Of a DNA stretch of 64,000 nucleotides, positions 17,280 to 25,439 are shown piece by piece. The position numbers and the translations under genes were made by a program. The stretch lies in assembly GCF_000711985.1 (NCBI RefSeq), contig NZ_JONU01000007.1, positions 62,001-126,000 of the forward strand. The letters run 5' to 3'. A model generated the notes under the pieces. That model did not search any database, was not told the DNA's origin, and was given only the letters and a program-made list of their open reading frames with translations. Every line of letters begins with the position of its first letter. Position 1 is the first letter of the stretch. Origin of the DNA: Rheinheimera texasensis DSM 17496. Lineage in GTDB: Bacteria > Pseudomonadota > Gammaproteobacteria > Enterobacterales > Alteromonadaceae.

Positions 17280-17355
17280 GCGGGCATAGCTCAGTTGGTA
17301 GAGCGCTACCTTGCCAAGGTCGAGGTCACGAGTTCGAGTCTCGTTGCCCGCTCCA
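17280..17355 (+). tRNA. tRNA-Gly (GCC), copy 1
   Basis: 76 bases including CCA. Acceptor GCGGGCA pairs with TGCCCGC, discriminator T. The anticodon loop contains TTGCCAA, giving GCC. First of four tRNAs; identical to the copy at 17606. Confidence 0.97.
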
Positions 17356-17378
17356 AATTAATCTGAAAAGTTGTTGAT

Positions 17379-17452
17379 GGCGGGTTGGCAGAGTGGCCAT
17401 GCAGCGGATTGCAAATCCGTCCACCTCGGTTCGACTCCGGGACCCGCCTCCA
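17379..17452 (+). tRNA. tRNA-Cys (GCA)
   Basis: 74 bases including CCA. Acceptor GGCGGGT pairs with ACCCGCC, discriminator T. Anticodon loop ATTGCAAAT gives GCA. Confidence 0.97.
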
Positions 17453-17482
17453 TTTAGCAAGTTAAAACACAAATCGTTGTCT

Positions 17483-17569
17483 GCCCGGGTGGTGAAATCG
17501 GTAGACACAAGGGATTTAAAATCCCTCGCTCGAAAGGGCGTGCCGGTTCAAGTCCGGCCCCGGGCACCA
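17483..17569 (+). tRNA. tRNA-Leu (UAA)
   Basis: 87 bases including CCA. Acceptor GCCCGGG pairs with CCCGGGC, discriminator A. The loop TTTAAAA gives anticodon TAA. The long variable arm fits tRNA-Leu. Confidence 0.97.
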
Positions 17570-17605
17570 CTTACTGTCAACACCATAGCAGTAAGAAACA
17601 AATAT

Positions 17606-17681
17606 GCGGGCATAGCTCAGTTGGTAGAGCGCTACCTTGCCAAGGTCGAGGTCACGAGTTCGAGTCTCGTTGCCCGCTCCA
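17606..17681 (+). tRNA. tRNA-Gly (GCC), copy 2
   Basis: Base-for-base duplicate of 17280-17355, including CCA and a few bases of 3' flank (AAATTA). E. coli has only Gly-Cys-Leu here, so the fourth gene looks like a local duplication. Confidence 0.97.
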
Positions 17682-20800: not shown

Positions 20801-21181
20801 ATGGTTACGCAAAGTTTTACTCTCACCAGCGCCGGCAAAATTAAAATAGCGGCCGGTCAAAAAGCGATTTCAGCCAATAAAGGCGAAACAGTTCAGTTTA
20901 TGCTGAACAATGAAAGCGGTTTTACCTTGTTAGATTGGGGCCTGTATTTTAACAACCCTTTTGATGTGGCCAATGCCTTACGTTATTCCTTTGGTGCCAC
21001 ACCAACCCAAGGCAATGTTTATAGTGCTGAAAAAACCGTCAGTCAGGACACAGCGACGGCAAAAGTGGCGATGTATAACGCTTATGCGGTTTATGTCACA
21101 GTGCAAAACAGCAGTGGTACGCAGGTGATTTATCAGCGCGATCCGGAAATCATCGTCAATGGCGGTGATGTTGAAGATTAA
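20801..21181 (+). CDS. Orphan 126-residue beta-rich protein
   Basis: 126 residues, no signal peptide, no membrane segment and no Cys. Alternating hydrophobic/polar patterns (GKIKIAAGQK, ETVQFMLNNESGF, YAVYVTVQNSSGTQVIYQ) suggest a small all-beta fold. I recognise no family. AAGGA at 20788-20792 supports ATG 20801. Its last two stop-codon bases overlap the stop codon of the kinase gene on the other strand (21178), so the two genes converge with no terminator between them. TGTAATTACA, a 10-bp palindrome, lies in its upstream region at about 20771-20780. A link to the kinase module is only suggested by position. Confidence 0.65.
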   Translation: MVTQSFTLTSAGKIKIAAGQKAISANKGETVQFMLNNESGFTLLDWGLYFNNPFDVANALRYSFGATPTQGNVYSAEKTVSQDTATAKVAMYNAYAVYVTVQNSSGTQVIYQRDPEIIVNGGDVED

Positions 21182-23898
21182 AGTGTTTTAGCCGCAGGGC
21201 GCACCAGCACTTGCTGTTGCAATAGCTGTTTAAATTCGGGTTCTGTTTCCAGCGCGGCAAATTCATAGCCCAGCTGCAGCGCTTTTTGCAGCTGGCTGGT
21301 GGCGGCTTCGCGTTGCCCACTGATTTCGAGGATTTGGGCGGCATTGATCAATTGCTGTGGCTTGAGCAGTTCACCTGCCGCGGCCAGCTCCTGCAGTGCT
21401 TGCCGATGCTGGCCGGATTTTGCCAGATACAGACCAAGCCGCAGTCTGGCATTTTGTAACTTTGGTGATTTTTCCAGTAACAGACTCACCAGTCGGATGG
21501 CTTGCTGATAACTGTGCTGGGCTTTGTCTGGTTGTCCAGCCCAGCGATAGCTGTCGGCCAGATTGCCCCAAAGCTGGTAGTTGTCTGGTTTTAACTCTAC
21601 GGCCAGCGCAAAGTGTTGGCTGGCTTCAGGATACTGCTGCTGATAAAACAATAAAGTCCCGATATTGGAATGATTGACTGCATTGCCATCAATAGCAACC
21701 GCCTGCCGGAAAGTGGCCAGCGCGGCCTTGAAATCGCTGCGGCTGAACTGGATAGCGCCAAGCGTCTGTAAAACGGTCGCGTTGTTGGGCGCCAATCCGG
21801 CGAGCTCGCGATAACTGGCTTCTGCTTTGTCCAGCTGCTGATGTTGATAGTAAAAAACCGCCAGCGCATTGATAAAATACCAGCTGCGGCTGATCTGTAC
21901 AGCCTGCTGTAAATGTTGTTCGGCGGCAGCGGTTTGACCTGCCAGGTCATAGGTCCGCGCCAAACCAAAGTGCAGCATGGCGTTGTCTGGTTTCAGTTGC
22001 AGCGCTTGCATATACAAAACGACAGCTTCGTTATAATCGCTGCGCATTTTCGCAATATCAGCCTGCAATGTTAGTAACCTGGTGTTTTTGGTCAGTTGTT
22101 GCGCTAACTCATTGGTCAGTTGTTCGGCCTGTGGTAACCAGTGGTGGATATCGCGAACTCTGGCCATCTGTAAAATGGCTTCAATCAGCGCAAAACGCGC
22201 TTCGGTAAAATTGGCATCTGCGTTTACAGCCAGTTGTAATTGCTGCAGTGATTTTTCCAGATTATTTTTGTAATCATGGCGGTAGAGGTAACTCATGCCA
22301 GTCAGATAAGCCTTATAAGCAATGTCGTTGATGGCAGTGCCTTTTGATAAAGCCAGATCACCAGGAACCTGCCAATCCAGCAGGCTCAGCAGGGCGGTTC
22401 TGACTTGCTGCTGGGCTAAATCCCAGTTGTCCAACGCCAAATCGATCTCGGTTGAACTCAAAATGCGCCCGTCAGCACCATGTTGCAGATTAAGCGCCAG
22501 TCGCCGCGTGTTCCCCAGATGCTGCAAACTGCCAGTGATCACTAATTCTGTCTGAAATTGCTGAAAGACAGTTTTGGCACTGACTTTCTCAAGTTGACCG
22601 AGCTCAGCCGGCGGCAGGACCCAAATGTTGCCATTATGCTGACCAATTTGCGCCAGATCCTGGCTCAGACTGAGCGACATGCCGGTCAGAAATTGCTGTA
22701 CTGAAGGATCTGCGCCGATATTTTGCAGCGGCATCAGGGCCAGGGTTTTGCCCTGACTCAATAGTTTTTCCTTATCTACTGACTGTTGGCCAAGCCACAG
22801 GCTTACCAGCAAAATAACCGGCGCCAGACCTGCCCAGAATTGCCAGCGCACCAGAGGATACCAGCGACCGAAACGGACTCGCTGTAACAAATCCTGCTGC
22901 AATCTGGTGAGTGTTGCAGCCACGTGATGCAGGTCGGCAGGGCGTTGAGCCGGGTGGCGTGAAAGACATTGCTCAATCAGCTTTTTCAAGGCTGTCGGCA
23001 GGTTCGGCTGCGGGTTTGGCACGCGCCGGTTTTGTTGCACAATAGCCTGCATCGTCTCTTCAGCAGTGTCGCGCAGAAACGGATGCACGCCATAACAAAG
23101 CTCATACATCACGACGCCAAAGGCAAACACATCGCTGTGGATAGTGGCGTCGTCGTCGCTTTGCAGGAGTTCCGGCGCCATATACGGCAACGTGCCTTTG
23201 ATTTGGTGCGCGGTCGTGTGTGCTGACCACTGGGTATCTAATTGGCTGGATAACACCGGCGGCAGGGCCGCGCCCTGAAGGTCGGCTTGCTGCTGTAAAC
23301 GTCGTTGCCGGCTTGCCATGCCGAAATCGAGAATTTTGACTTGTTTTGCCGGCAGGCACACCATCAGATTGCTCGGTTTTAAGTCGCGATGTATCACACC
23401 GGCCTGATGGGCGCTTGCCAGACCGGCAGCAATCTGCGCCAGCAAATGCAATTTGTCCGGTAAACTCAACGAGCGTTTCTGGTATTGATCCAGCGTCTGA
23501 CCTTCCAGCCATTCCGTCACGATGTAGCTCTGTTGTTCGCTACGGGAAATATCATAGACGGTGACGATATTTGGATGCTGTAATGATGAAGCCAGGCGGG
23601 CTTCTTCCAGCAACTGCTGCCCGGCGGATTGCCCCTGGCGCTGCAACTGTAATACTTTGAGCGCCACCGGGCGTTGCAGCGTCACATCATAAGCCTGATA
23701 AACGACGCCCATACCACCTTGCCCGGCCTGACGCAGTAACTGGTAGTGCCCGAACCCGGCAGGCGGCTGTGGTGCAGCGACAGAAACCCCGCTGTCGCCC
23801 GGCATTTGTGTCTCAAGCTGTGATGGCAGATCGGATTGGCAGAAGTCGCAATGGCCGGCTGTCATTGGGTTGGACATCTCACACTGCGGACAAATCAC
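21178..23898 (-). CDS. Ser/Thr protein kinase with zinc ribbon, membrane anchor and TPR repeats
   Basis: 906 residues. A zinc ribbon opens the protein (CPQC at residue 3-6, CDFC at 17-20). A complete Hanks-type kinase follows (about 50-330): glycine loop GQGGMGVVY, VALK lysine, HRDLKPSNLMV, ILDFGMAS, GTLPYMAPEL and DVFAFGVVMYEL. All catalytic residues are present, so it should be active. One hydrophobic segment (FWAGLAPVILLVSLWLG) precedes a region with CadC/TolB-like features. Many TPRs (about 540-870; e.g. DNAMLHFGLARTYDLAGQTAAAEQHL) fill the C-terminal half, probably outside the cytoplasm. The start is GTG at 23898, inside the stop of the upstream FHA-GGDEF gene (GTGA overlap), so the two are translationally coupled. 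Confidence 0.9.
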   Translation of the reverse strand: MICPQCEMSNPMTAGHCDFCQSDLPSQLETQMPGDSGVSVAAPQPPAGFGHYQLLRQAGQGGMGVVYQAYDVTLQRPVALKVLQLQRQGQSAGQQLLEEARLASSLQHPNIVTVYDISRSEQQSYIVTEWLEGQTLDQYQKRSLSLPDKLHLLAQIAAGLASAHQAGVIHRDLKPSNLMVCLPAKQVKILDFGMASRQRRLQQQADLQGAALPPVLSSQLDTQWSAHTTAHQIKGTLPYMAPELLQSDDDATIHSDVFAFGVVMYELCYGVHPFLRDTAEETMQAIVQQNRRVPNPQPNLPTALKKLIEQCLSRHPAQRPADLHHVAATLTRLQQDLLQRVRFGRWYPLVRWQFWAGLAPVILLVSLWLGQQSVDKEKLLSQGKTLALMPLQNIGADPSVQQFLTGMSLSLSQDLAQIGQHNGNIWVLPPAELGQLEKVSAKTVFQQFQTELVITGSLQHLGNTRRLALNLQHGADGRILSSTEIDLALDNWDLAQQQVRTALLSLLDWQVPGDLALSKGTAINDIAYKAYLTGMSYLYRHDYKNNLEKSLQQLQLAVNADANFTEARFALIEAILQMARVRDIHHWLPQAEQLTNELAQQLTKNTRLLTLQADIAKMRSDYNEAVVLYMQALQLKPDNAMLHFGLARTYDLAGQTAAAEQHLQQAVQISRSWYFINALAVFYYQHQQLDKAEASYRELAGLAPNNATVLQTLGAIQFSRSDFKAALATFRQAVAIDGNAVNHSNIGTLLFYQQQYPEASQHFALAVELKPDNYQLWGNLADSYRWAGQPDKAQHSYQQAIRLVSLLLEKSPKLQNARLRLGLYLAKSGQHRQALQELAAAGELLKPQQLINAAQILEISGQREAATSQLQKALQLGYEFAALETEPEFKQLLQQQVLVRPAAKTL

Positions 23899-25439
23899 GC
23901 CTGCGAGCTCCGGTTGCCGGATTTGACTATTTCGCTGCCGGTATCAAGCAATTGTAATTTGGTCGGTTTGTGCGCACAAACCCGGTTCTTACCGCTGTGT
24001 TTGGCCTGATACATTGCCTGGTCGGCACAGTCGATAAAGCGGTACGCCAGATTATGCAGGGCGTGATGGAATCCGGCGACACCGATACTGGCGGTGATAT
24101 TCAGCGTCAGACCAGCAACCTGCGGCTGCAACGCAGCAATGTCGGCGCGAATGCGCTCGGCGTAAATCAATGCGCTATCAGCTTCTGTATTATTGACTAA
24201 CACCAGAAACTCTTCGCCACCCAGCCGGCCGACCCGATCGGCTTTACGCGCCAGCGTTTTTAGCAGGGCTGCGACTGCGCGCAGCACTTCATCTCCGGCG
24301 AAATGGCCATATTGATCGTTGATCTGCTTAAAATTATCTAAATCGATAAAAATCAGGCTGCACGGTTGACCGTACCTTTTCGCCTGTTCCATCGATAAGG
24401 TGATCTGCTCTTCAATCATACTGCGGCTGCATAAACCGGTCAGGTCGTCACACAGTGCGCGGCTGATAGTGATGGCATTTTTCAGCGCGAGGCCGAGCTG
24501 TGCCTGCAGCGTTTTGCAGAAGGTTTCCTGTAGCTGGTTAAAACCTTCAGGCCTGGTGCTGTCCAGATAAAGCACTGCCAAAGTCTCGCCGTCTGCCTGC
24601 AGCGGCATCGCCAGTTCACCTGTGACTGCAGGTTCGGCGGGTGACTTGCCGAAATGGTCCGGCAGCGGCGTGGTGAGTAGCCTGAGTTCCTGGCGCTCGA
24701 AACAATCCTGCGCCAGTGTTTCTGCCGGCTCTGGCTGGCCGTCTGCGCGTGCTGGCGTATAGTTCCAGCAGGCGTGGCGTTGAAATTGTTGACGGCGTTT
24801 GTCTGGCATTAAGACAAAACCGCGCCGTGCACCCAACACTTCGGCAATCATCGGCACTGCGTGCTCTAGCAAAACCTGATAGCCCTGGGTCTGGTTCACC
24901 AGTGTATTGAGGCGCTGTAACAGACTGTTTTGCGCAGACCACTGTTGAGCGGCCTGCTGCAACTGCAGGAATTGTCCACGCAGATATTGTTGCAGCTCCG
25001 GCAATGGTTGCGCCTGCTGGCTGAGCTGTAATAAAGCGCCCAGACTATGCTGCTGCATGTCGTCAATGCGTTGTTGTAAATCATGTAACGCCCAGACAGC
25101 AAAATCCTGCTCGTGATGCTGTTCTGCTTCATATCTGAGCGTGACTTTCTGGCGGCCAAAGCATAGTTCACATTGCGACGGCAGCGGGACTGGTTGCGAA
25201 GGTTGCAACAACAGCTGGTCGAGCTGAGTGCCGAATCGGGAACTTTTATCGCGCAGGACCGGCCCTTGTGGCGTCAGGCGGATCTCTGCATGCTGGCGTG
25301 ATACGCTGGGGTCATGCAGAACCAGCAGATTGACCGGGTCACGGCCAATAGAGATAGGAGTATCGTCCAGCGTCAGGCGGACTGCATGGTGCTTATCGCC
25401 CTGCAGCCATTCTAAATCGAGCACCATGGGGTCATTCAT
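23895..25439 (-). CDS. FHA-GAF-GGDEF diguanylate cyclase
   Basis: 514 residues. An FHA phosphothreonine-binding domain (about 15-95) is seen as PISIGRDPVNLLVLHDP with SRQHAEI; the later conserved S-x-N-G-T appears as SSRFGT. A coiled/GAF-like region follows (about 170-320). The GGDEF domain (about 350-500) has DLDNFKQINDQYGHFAGDEVLR, active-site GGEEF and an inhibitory-site RxxD (RKAD) five residues before it. An active, product-inhibited c-di-GMP synthase is predicted. ATG 25439 (MNDPMVLDLEW) has GGAG 8 bases upstream; the longer ORF start at 25520 lacks conserved sequence. The downstream kinase overlaps its stop by 4 bases, so FHA probably reads phosphates placed by that kinase. Confidence 0.9.
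   Translation of the reverse strand: MNDPMVLDLEWLQGDKHHAVRLTLDDTPISIGRDPVNLLVLHDPSVSRQHAEIRLTPQGPVLRDKSSRFGTQLDQLLLQPSQPVPLPSQCELCFGRQKVTLRYEAEQHHEQDFAVWALHDLQQRIDDMQQHSLGALLQLSQQAQPLPELQQYLRGQFLQLQQAAQQWSAQNSLLQRLNTLVNQTQGYQVLLEHAVPMIAEVLGARRGFVLMPDKRRQQFQRHACWNYTPARADGQPEPAETLAQDCFERQELRLLTTPLPDHFGKSPAEPAVTGELAMPLQADGETLAVLYLDSTRPEGFNQLQETFCKTLQAQLGLALKNAITISRALCDDLTGLCSRSMIEEQITLSMEQAKRYGQPCSLIFIDLDNFKQINDQYGHFAGDEVLRAVAALLKTLARKADRVGRLGGEEFLVLVNNTEADSALIYAERIRADIAALQPQVAGLTLNITASIGVAGFHHALHNLAYRFIDCADQAMYQAKHSGKNRVCAHKPTKLQLLDTGSEIVKSGNRSSQA

Follow-up and report, generated by a model that had tools for sequence, protein, structure and literature searches.

A Ser/Thr protein kinase and an FHA-GAF-GGDEF diguanylate cyclase are encoded by two overlapping genes in Rheinheimera texasensis DSM 17496, and the same pair is present in other Rheinheimera and in Colwellia. 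The genes lie in a stretch of 64,000 nucleotides (assembly GCF_000711985.1, contig NZ_JONU01000007.1, positions 62,001 to 126,000 of the forward strand), referred to here as the window. With about even confidence, the pair is read as a phosphothreonine-based sensor-to-second-messenger module, in which a signal received by the TPR half of the kinase would lead to autophosphorylation, docking of the cyclase FHA domain in trans, activation of the cyclase and feedback through its RxxD site. A first-pass annotation made from the DNA letters had proposed that the kinase recruits or switches the cyclase. This proposal is partly supported, as conservation of the pair, co-occurrence of the two genes and recurrence of the arrangement in another phylum make it the simplest reading.

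Layout of the gene pair

The pair occupies positions 21178-25439 of the window and the two genes share the four bases GTGA, both as first annotated. The kinase had been listed ahead of its partner; the genes do overlap, and the cyclase is the upstream one. The open reading frames and Pfam matches define the following features.

25439..23895, minus strand: FHA-GAF-GGDEF diguanylate cyclase gene, first gene of the pair, 514 amino acids, ATG start
23898..21178, minus strand: Ser/Thr protein kinase gene, second gene of the pair, 906 amino acids, GTG start
23895..23898, minus strand: GTGA overlap of 4 nucleotides between the cyclase stop and the kinase start

The cyclase ATG is preceded by AGGTGGAG and the kinase GTG by CCGGAG. 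GGDEF has 64 matches in the genome that contains the window and the kinase 6, of which 5 exceed the cut-off; FHA has just 2. By eye, the second FHA protein has no GGDEF domain, is encoded behind a protease-like gene and contains hydrophobic segments, and on the latter two grounds it was rejected as a part of the module.

The diguanylate cyclase

25155..25355, minus strand: FHA domain, residues 29-95; R33, S47, R48 and H50 are kept and the usual Asn of the NG motif is F69
24483..24872, minus strand: GAF domain (Pfam), residues 190-319
23982..24458, minus strand: GGDEF domain (Pfam), residues 328-486
24207..24221, minus strand: GGEEF active-site motif, residues 407-411, invariant in 7 aligned members
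24237..24248, minus strand: RxxD inhibitory-site motif (RKAD), R398 and D401, both invariant in 7 aligned members

The FHA domain is matched by Pfam at E 7e-15 (55.7 bits against a cut-off of 20.7), the GAF domain as GAF_2 at E 1.5e-12 and the GGDEF domain over its full length at E 6e-45 (153 bits against a cut-off of 23.8). By its GGEEF motif and domain match the protein is predicted to be an active diguanylate cyclase, and the GGEEF at residue 407 and the RKAD at residue 398 bear out what had been annotated. The N-terminal FHA domain was also correctly recognized, and the residues of its GR and SxxH motifs (R33, S47, R48 and H50) are invariant in seven of seven aligned cyclases; what the first-pass annotation did not record is that the asparagine of the NG motif has been replaced by Phe. 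One sequence of the seven-cyclase alignment is cut off at its C terminus, and an eighth member, from the genome G200 (99% identical), is outside the alignment. Between the window and the Rheinheimera SA_1 cyclases, identity is 48% in the GAF domain, 57% in the FHA domain and 67% in the GGDEF domain, making the GAF domain the least conserved of the three.

The FHA domain begins at the N terminus of the cyclase, the Arg of its GR motif being residue 33, and no member of the window family has an N-terminal tail with a conserved Thr before the FHA domain. In an alignment of four cyclases the invariant Thr residues are T71, T310, T334, T418 and T449; all of these fall within the FHA, GAF or GGDEF domains, and this alignment has no invariant Thr outside the domains. 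T71, T310 and T334 are still invariant across the seven cyclases. The missing tail, together with the lack of an invariant Thr outside the domains, makes a self-tail mechanism unlikely and favors a ligand supplied in trans. The phospho-ligand of the tail-less cyclase is thus most likely another protein, and the kinase is the leading candidate.

The kinase

23839..23892, minus strand: zinc-ribbon-like cysteines CPQC...CDFC, residues 3-20; the four Cys are invariant in 4 aligned kinases
22936..23745, minus strand: protein kinase catalytic domain, residues 52-321 (Pfam Pkinase, E 8e-53)
22798..22854, minus strand: probable single transmembrane segment, residues 349-367 (hydropathy, borderline)
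21385..22041, minus strand: TPR region (Pfam), residues 620-838, predicted to lie outside the cytoplasm from the balance of Lys and Arg

The catalytic motifs and the zinc ribbon claimed for the kinase are all present. A glycine-rich loop (GQGGMG at residue 59), the Lys of VALK, HRDLKPSN at 170, DFG at 191 and APE at 241 place the protein, by its sequence, among the Hanks-type Ser/Thr kinases. It falls short of the PknB/Stk1 class of PASTA kinases, scoring 207 bits with NCBIfam NF033483 against a cut-off of 450, and there is no PASTA domain among its Pfam matches. The single membrane segment and the TPR half that had been annotated stand in part. Pfam recognizes the TPR region, and the kinases of three relatives have a similar hydrophobic segment at the corresponding place (hydropathy 1.54-1.68), but the window segment itself is borderline (hydropathy 1.57 over 19 residues). 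Lys and Arg are more frequent before this segment than after it in all four kinases, and this excess of positive residues on the kinase side predicts that the TPR half lies outside the cytoplasm. The region that follows the membrane segment has no Pfam match at E 10.

Conservation in the family and genus

Of 395 genomes from the family to which R. texasensis belongs, 8 match a profile of the FHA-linker-GAF part of the cyclase at E 1e-20 (five from the genus and three Colwellia). The kinase adjoins the cyclase, in the same gene order, in seven of these, the window included; in the eighth (G205) the contig ends inside the cyclase. Conservation of the pair, which the first-pass annotation had named as a check on its proposal, therefore extends beyond both strain and genus. 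An earlier profile run on 369 genomes of the class gave just the window's own match and one partial FHA match. Within the genus, five of 22 genomes have the cyclase (E 1e-6) and four have the kinase (E 1e-30), all four being among those five. The closest named record, in a scan limited to the best 80 of 92 relatives, is Rheinheimera sp. Bin_57_1, with 99% identity in the FHA-GAF part. The pair is rare, yet it is not strain specific.

Spacing of the two genes ranges from the 4-nucleotide overlap of the window and SA_1 to a gap of 324 nucleotides in Colwellia 12G3. Wherever an estimate of dS was possible, the domains have a ratio of nonsynonymous to synonymous substitution rates (dN/dS) of 0.03-0.12. 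The pair is not a product of chance, since the genes are adjacent in seven of the eight cyclase-bearing genomes (the contig of the eighth being too short), are under such constraint and belong to a genome with two FHA matches and five kinase matches over the cut-off.

Rheinheimera riviphila and SA_1 (L023 and L024) differ unevenly along the locus. Divergence is concentrated in a single block made up of the N-terminal part of the kinase (78.6% identity) and the cyclase (81.0%); identity is 96.2% in the sensor half of the kinase and 88.8 and 89.5% in the flanking stretches. DNA identity changes abruptly near kinase codon 376, just past the transmembrane segment, in what looks like recombination at the boundary between sensor and kinase. 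This one case suggests joint exchange or joint divergence of kinase domain and cyclase.

Recurrence in other phyla

The named-genome scan also gave short FHA-GGDEF genes that lie head-to-head with kinases at two loci, L050 and L043; in L043 the FHA-GGDEF gene is a neighbor of the match at that locus and not the match itself. The L050 kinase has a PDC/Cache-type sensor match (PF22673 over the cut-off, dCache_1 below it). The genomes of L050 and L043 have 140 and 67 kinase matches, respectively, and with so many kinases these two head-to-head cases could be chance. One further short FHA-GGDEF gene, in a Bdellovibrionales locus, has no kinase.

The same-strand arrangement was found in the phylum of L043 (record titled Acidobacteria), where a three-gene FHA-GGDEF profile matches 183 of 297 genomes at 1e-48, GGDEF-only matches included. 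Among 85 Acidobacteriota loci whose matches span the FHA domain, 21 have an adjacent kinase on the same strand. These loci are mostly the best scoring among the matches listed; two come from one genome, one is the seed and several lie on short contigs. Control GGDEF genes of the same phylum that lack an FHA domain have no same-strand adjacent kinase (0 of 61 overall and 0 of 42 in 40 loci). The 42-gene control was taken from a search that covered 19 of the 21 genomes with an operon, using its first 40 rows without FHA. The difference between 21 of 85 and 0 of 42 has a Fisher p of 1.8e-4, a value that ignores relatedness. When kinases on the opposite strand within 600 nucleotides are counted too, three more FHA loci (the seed among them) and 1 of 19 control genes qualify; the later 40 control loci, like the 40 loci of the L050 phylum described below, were scored for the same strand only. 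The kinase label requires seven changes on a tree of 123 sequences, at least five of them on starred branches; the tree was built by a quick method, has several long branches and uses 10 of the 40 L050-phylum loci.

The Acidobacteriota operons resemble the window pair in layout and differ from it in domains. As in the window, the cyclase precedes the kinase in 20 of 21 pairs, and an overlap of exactly 4 nucleotides (with the start taken from the longest open reading frame) occurs in 11. Thirteen of the 21 operons consist of two cyclases followed by the kinase (L173, L184-186, L188, L189, L192, L194, L195, L198, L199, L202 and L208). The cyclases of these tandem operons form two neighboring clades, and a pattern search found no GGDEF motif in the second cyclase of L208. 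All six of the 21 kinases that were scanned in Pfam have HEAT repeats, not TPR (three below the cut-off), and the L151 and L165 kinases look different by eye. The kinase-paired FHA-GGDEF proteins carry N-terminal extensions before the FHA domain, several with a recurring Thr (by eye).

The phylum of L050 (Myxococcota-like) also has many matches (195 of 282 genomes at 1e-60). None of its 40 fetched FHA-GGDEF loci has a same-strand adjacent kinase, and an operonic kinase was rejected for this phylum. Set against 21 of 85 in Acidobacteriota, this indicates that pairing with a kinase is recurrent and not universal. A class of same-strand kinase/FHA-GGDEF operons is proposed, which comprises the window pair, those of six further genomes of the family and the 21 Acidobacteriota loci.

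Two groups of loci stand beside these operons. L210, L212, L213, L214, L217, L220 and L221 form a clade nested in the tandem-operon group; each has a single FHA-GGDEF gene and no kinase in the fetched locus (tblastn negative), an apparent loss or relocation of the kinase. Tandem FHA-GGDEF pairs with no kinase in the fetched stretch occur at L155, L164, L170, L203, L205 and L222.

Relation to known systems

The closest known relative in principle is DgcB (Bd0742) of Bdellovibrio bacteriovorus. According to the available portion of PMC6733907, the FHA domain of DgcB reads the protein's own phosphorylated tail as a phosphothreonine peptide, an interaction tied to activation of the GGDEF domain; the tail is an N-terminal stretch of 31 residues with T14, the peptide is hydrogen bonded by N97, and the kinase is described as unidentified. 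Both proteins have an FHA domain before a GGEEF domain with an RxxD site, and the FHA profile of the window family matches the DgcB FHA structures (6hbz, 6hc0 and 6hc1) at E 1e-7 to 1e-8. They differ in that the window family has no counterpart of the T14-bearing tail, that a GAF domain (residues 190-319) intervenes where DgcB has its FHA domain directly before GGDEF, that the peptide-contacting N97 corresponds by motif to Phe and that a kinase is encoded together with the cyclase. The window pair is thus DgcB-like in principle and set apart by the absence of both the tail and the direct FHA-GGDEF order. Because its cyclase has no N-terminal tail, the phospho-ligand would, unlike that of DgcB, be presented in trans.

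Kinase and cyclase are also known as fusions. The parts of PMC6733907 available describe BE21_29150 of Sorangium cellulosum, a 974-amino-acid protein of kinase-tail-FHA-GGDEF order, which likewise links a kinase to FHA-GGDEF; it is a single tailed protein, whereas the window encodes kinase and cyclase in separate genes, with a kinase that is probably membrane-bound and a cyclase that contains a GAF domain. A Clostridium thermocellum protein combines kinase, TPR and GGDEF, all three also being found together in the window pair, in one polypeptide with no FHA domain mentioned in the text available (PMC1262709). Among cyclases, CdgSH of Anabaena (FHA-PAS-GAF-GGDEF-EAL) similarly has FHA and GAF domains upstream of GGDEF, but it is bifunctional with EAL, contains a PAS domain and has no kinase partner in the portion of the account available (PMC8682488). 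The first-pass annotation had supposed that a coupled kinase-GGDEF pair is little described, and apart from these fused forms (PMC6733907 and PMC1262709) no description of a two-gene kinase/FHA-GGDEF pair was found in the literature searched, which covered titles, abstract openings and some passages and had subscription papers and preprints outside it.

Other FHA proteins under Ser/Thr kinase control include GarA and OdhI, which bind their own phosphorylated tails (PMC6733907, available portion). The window FHA profile matches both. They differ from the window pair in this own-tail binding and in acting on metabolic enzymes and not on c-di-GMP (cyclic dimeric GMP). In type VI secretion, the PpkA-PppA-Fha post-translational switch consists of a membrane kinase, a PP2C phosphatase and an FHA reader. 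The Colwellia DT_126 locus similarly holds a kinase, FHA proteins and a PP2C phosphatase, but the output here is a GGDEF enzyme and no secretion genes were recognized by eye at the loci.

Proposed mechanism and alternatives

In the proposed module the membrane kinase would sense an envelope signal through its TPR sensor half, probably outside the cytoplasm, and would autophosphorylate on threonine, with the activation-loop pair T228/T229 as the candidate site. The FHA domain of the co-made cyclase would then dock on the phosphorylated kinase. Docking is expected to activate rather than inhibit, as it would concentrate the cyclase at the membrane and dimerize or reorient it so that GGDEF sites meet and form c-di-GMP. 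The GAF domain may add a second input, and the RxxD site would limit output by product feedback.

Several observations weigh against this scheme. The NG asparagine of the FHA peptide cleft is Phe in all seven aligned cyclases (the window reads S-R-F-G-T, with F69), and phospho-binding may thus be weak or altered. NBS1-type FHA domains have an aromatic residue at this position and still keep phosphothreonine binding, and the substitution is taken as a caution and not as a refutation. In the kinase, the GT before APE is the only activation-loop Thr column common to Rheinheimera and the one aligned Colwellia kinase, and the kinase of Colwellia psychrerythraea GAB14E (L034 9560-13102) reads HSD for HRD. 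In the metagenome-assembled Rheinheimera G200 an in-frame stop interrupts the kinase (L026 5142-6347) at codon 83, and the cyclase next to it is intact; the stop may be decay or an assembly error, and kinase copies without it exist. Beyond the family, no same-strand adjacent kinase is seen at 64 of the 85 Acidobacteriota loci, some of them on short contigs, and its complete absence from the 40 loci of the L050 phylum indicates that FHA-GGDEF proteins are able to function with no kinase linked to them. A tail-less FHA-GAF-GGDEF gene of the L043 phylum (L228, 3225-4766) has no kinase in its 9.8 kb; it has Cys at the NG position and overlaps by 4 nucleotides a probable membrane-protein gene, which is followed by a GTPase-like gene (by eye).

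The alternative that survives best, and is judged unlikely, is that the kinase phosphorylates the cyclase itself, on a Thr of the linker, GAF or GGDEF domain, and that this mark is read by an FHA domain, either in the same subunit or in its partner. The reading would resemble that in DgcB, GarA and OdhI except for the internal position of the site. A self-peptide mode is established for DgcB in the portion of PMC6733907 available, and the N-terminal extensions of the kinase-paired Acidobacteriota proteins, with their recurring Thr, also point in this direction. The window family, however, starts directly at the FHA domain (the GR Arg is residue 33, compared with R61 in DgcB), and its invariant Thr are all inside domains.

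Slightly less probable is a role of the FHA domain as a tether only, to the phosphorylated kinase or to a small third protein, with phosphorylation deciding where c-di-GMP is made and the GAF domain setting how much, GAF-GGDEF proteins being commonly gated by GAF. The window family has retained its GAF domain, though this is the least conserved of the three; against a mere tether, the FHA state controls the GGDEF domain in DgcB (PMC6733907, as far as the text available goes). Least probable of the three is that the genes are co-expressed and biochemically independent, the FHA domain having lost phospho-binding through the change of Asn to Phe or reading another kinase, as the invariant Phe, the 40 kinase-free loci of the L050 phylum and the other kinases of the window genome would allow. 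This is countered by the co-occurrence of kinase and cyclase in the genus and the recurrence of the pairing in Acidobacteriota, by the retention of R33, S47 and R48 and by the example of the NBS1-type domains.

The small third gene and the neighborhood

20801..21181, plus strand: small gene of 126 amino acids, converging on the kinase and overlapping its end by 4 nucleotides

This gene, the missing DgcB-type tail and the Phe in place of the FHA Asn were absent from the first-pass annotation; the latter two matter for the mechanism. The small protein has no Pfam or NCBIfam match at E 10. In R. riviphila and SA_1 the corresponding position behind the kinase is taken by a homologue that is 59% identical, and the homologue in G200 is 98% identical, such that the gene is present in all four genus genomes whose assembly reaches this end of the kinase. 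The sites of the pair differ, being near panBC in R. riviphila and SA_1 and near electron-transfer flavoprotein genes in the window (gene names by eye). Comparison with the SA_1 homologue gave a dN of 0.37 and a dS of 1.5, and the gene is under purifying selection. It is regarded as part of the Rheinheimera module. Three Colwellia loci have genes of 111-124 amino acids in the same place and orientation after the kinase; similarity between the Rheinheimera and Colwellia small proteins is not significant, and their homology was rejected.

Other genes near the Colwellia pairs vary. In DT_126 (L025 2902-10613) a PP2C phosphatase and a divergent FHA protein of 310 amino acids lie beside the kinase and cyclase, and GAB14E (L034 6814-7746) has an FHA protein that is similar by eye. 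The second FHA protein is not in the Colwellia 12G3 locus. A PP2C phosphatase is thus near the pair in one of the three Colwellia loci and a second FHA protein in two of the three, which speaks in favor of the proposed module.

About 4 kb from the window pair, positions 17280-17681 contain four tRNA genes (Gly, Cys, Leu and Gly) after pgsA, and similar pgsA-tRNA clusters are near the pair in two Colwellia. A shared tRNA-cluster site is not claimed, as the surroundings and the orientation are not the same and in two other Rheinheimera the pair lies near panBC (by eye). A mobile element was considered and dropped, a plasmid collection having no match to the FHA-GAF part (E 1e-5) or to the small protein (E 0.01), with phages not searched. 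A defense system was considered as well and not adopted; PADLOC matches of the kinase are matches to the kinase domain, and PADLOC gave no match for the small protein.

Significance

In the literature searched, as far as the sources were available, phosphothreonine gating of a diguanylate cyclase so far rests on one studied protein, DgcB. Natural co-encoded pairs of kinase and cyclase are now known in Rheinheimera, Colwellia and many Acidobacteriota genomes. A broader reading, held at somewhat less than even confidence, is that a phosphothreonine equivalent of the pathway from histidine kinase through response regulator to GGDEF has arisen repeatedly in bacteria, as operons that join a dedicated Ser/Thr kinase to an FHA-GGDEF cyclase in cis and trans designs, and that the kinase of DgcB is of this class. 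The cis design, that of Acidobacteriota, would have an N-terminal tail, usually a HEAT-repeat kinase without an obvious membrane segment and often two tandem cyclases. In the trans design, that of Rheinheimera and probably Colwellia, the tail would be missing, the kinase would be a membrane protein with TPR, the cyclase would include a GAF domain and a further small protein would be present.

The tailed and tail-less designs offer a natural contrast, and in Rheinheimera a small uncharacterized protein goes with the tail-less one. The two-gene pairs make it directly testable which kinase acts on an FHA-GGDEF cyclase and by what mechanism. The recurrence of such pairings in distant bacteria suggests a protein-phosphorylation route to c-di-GMP.

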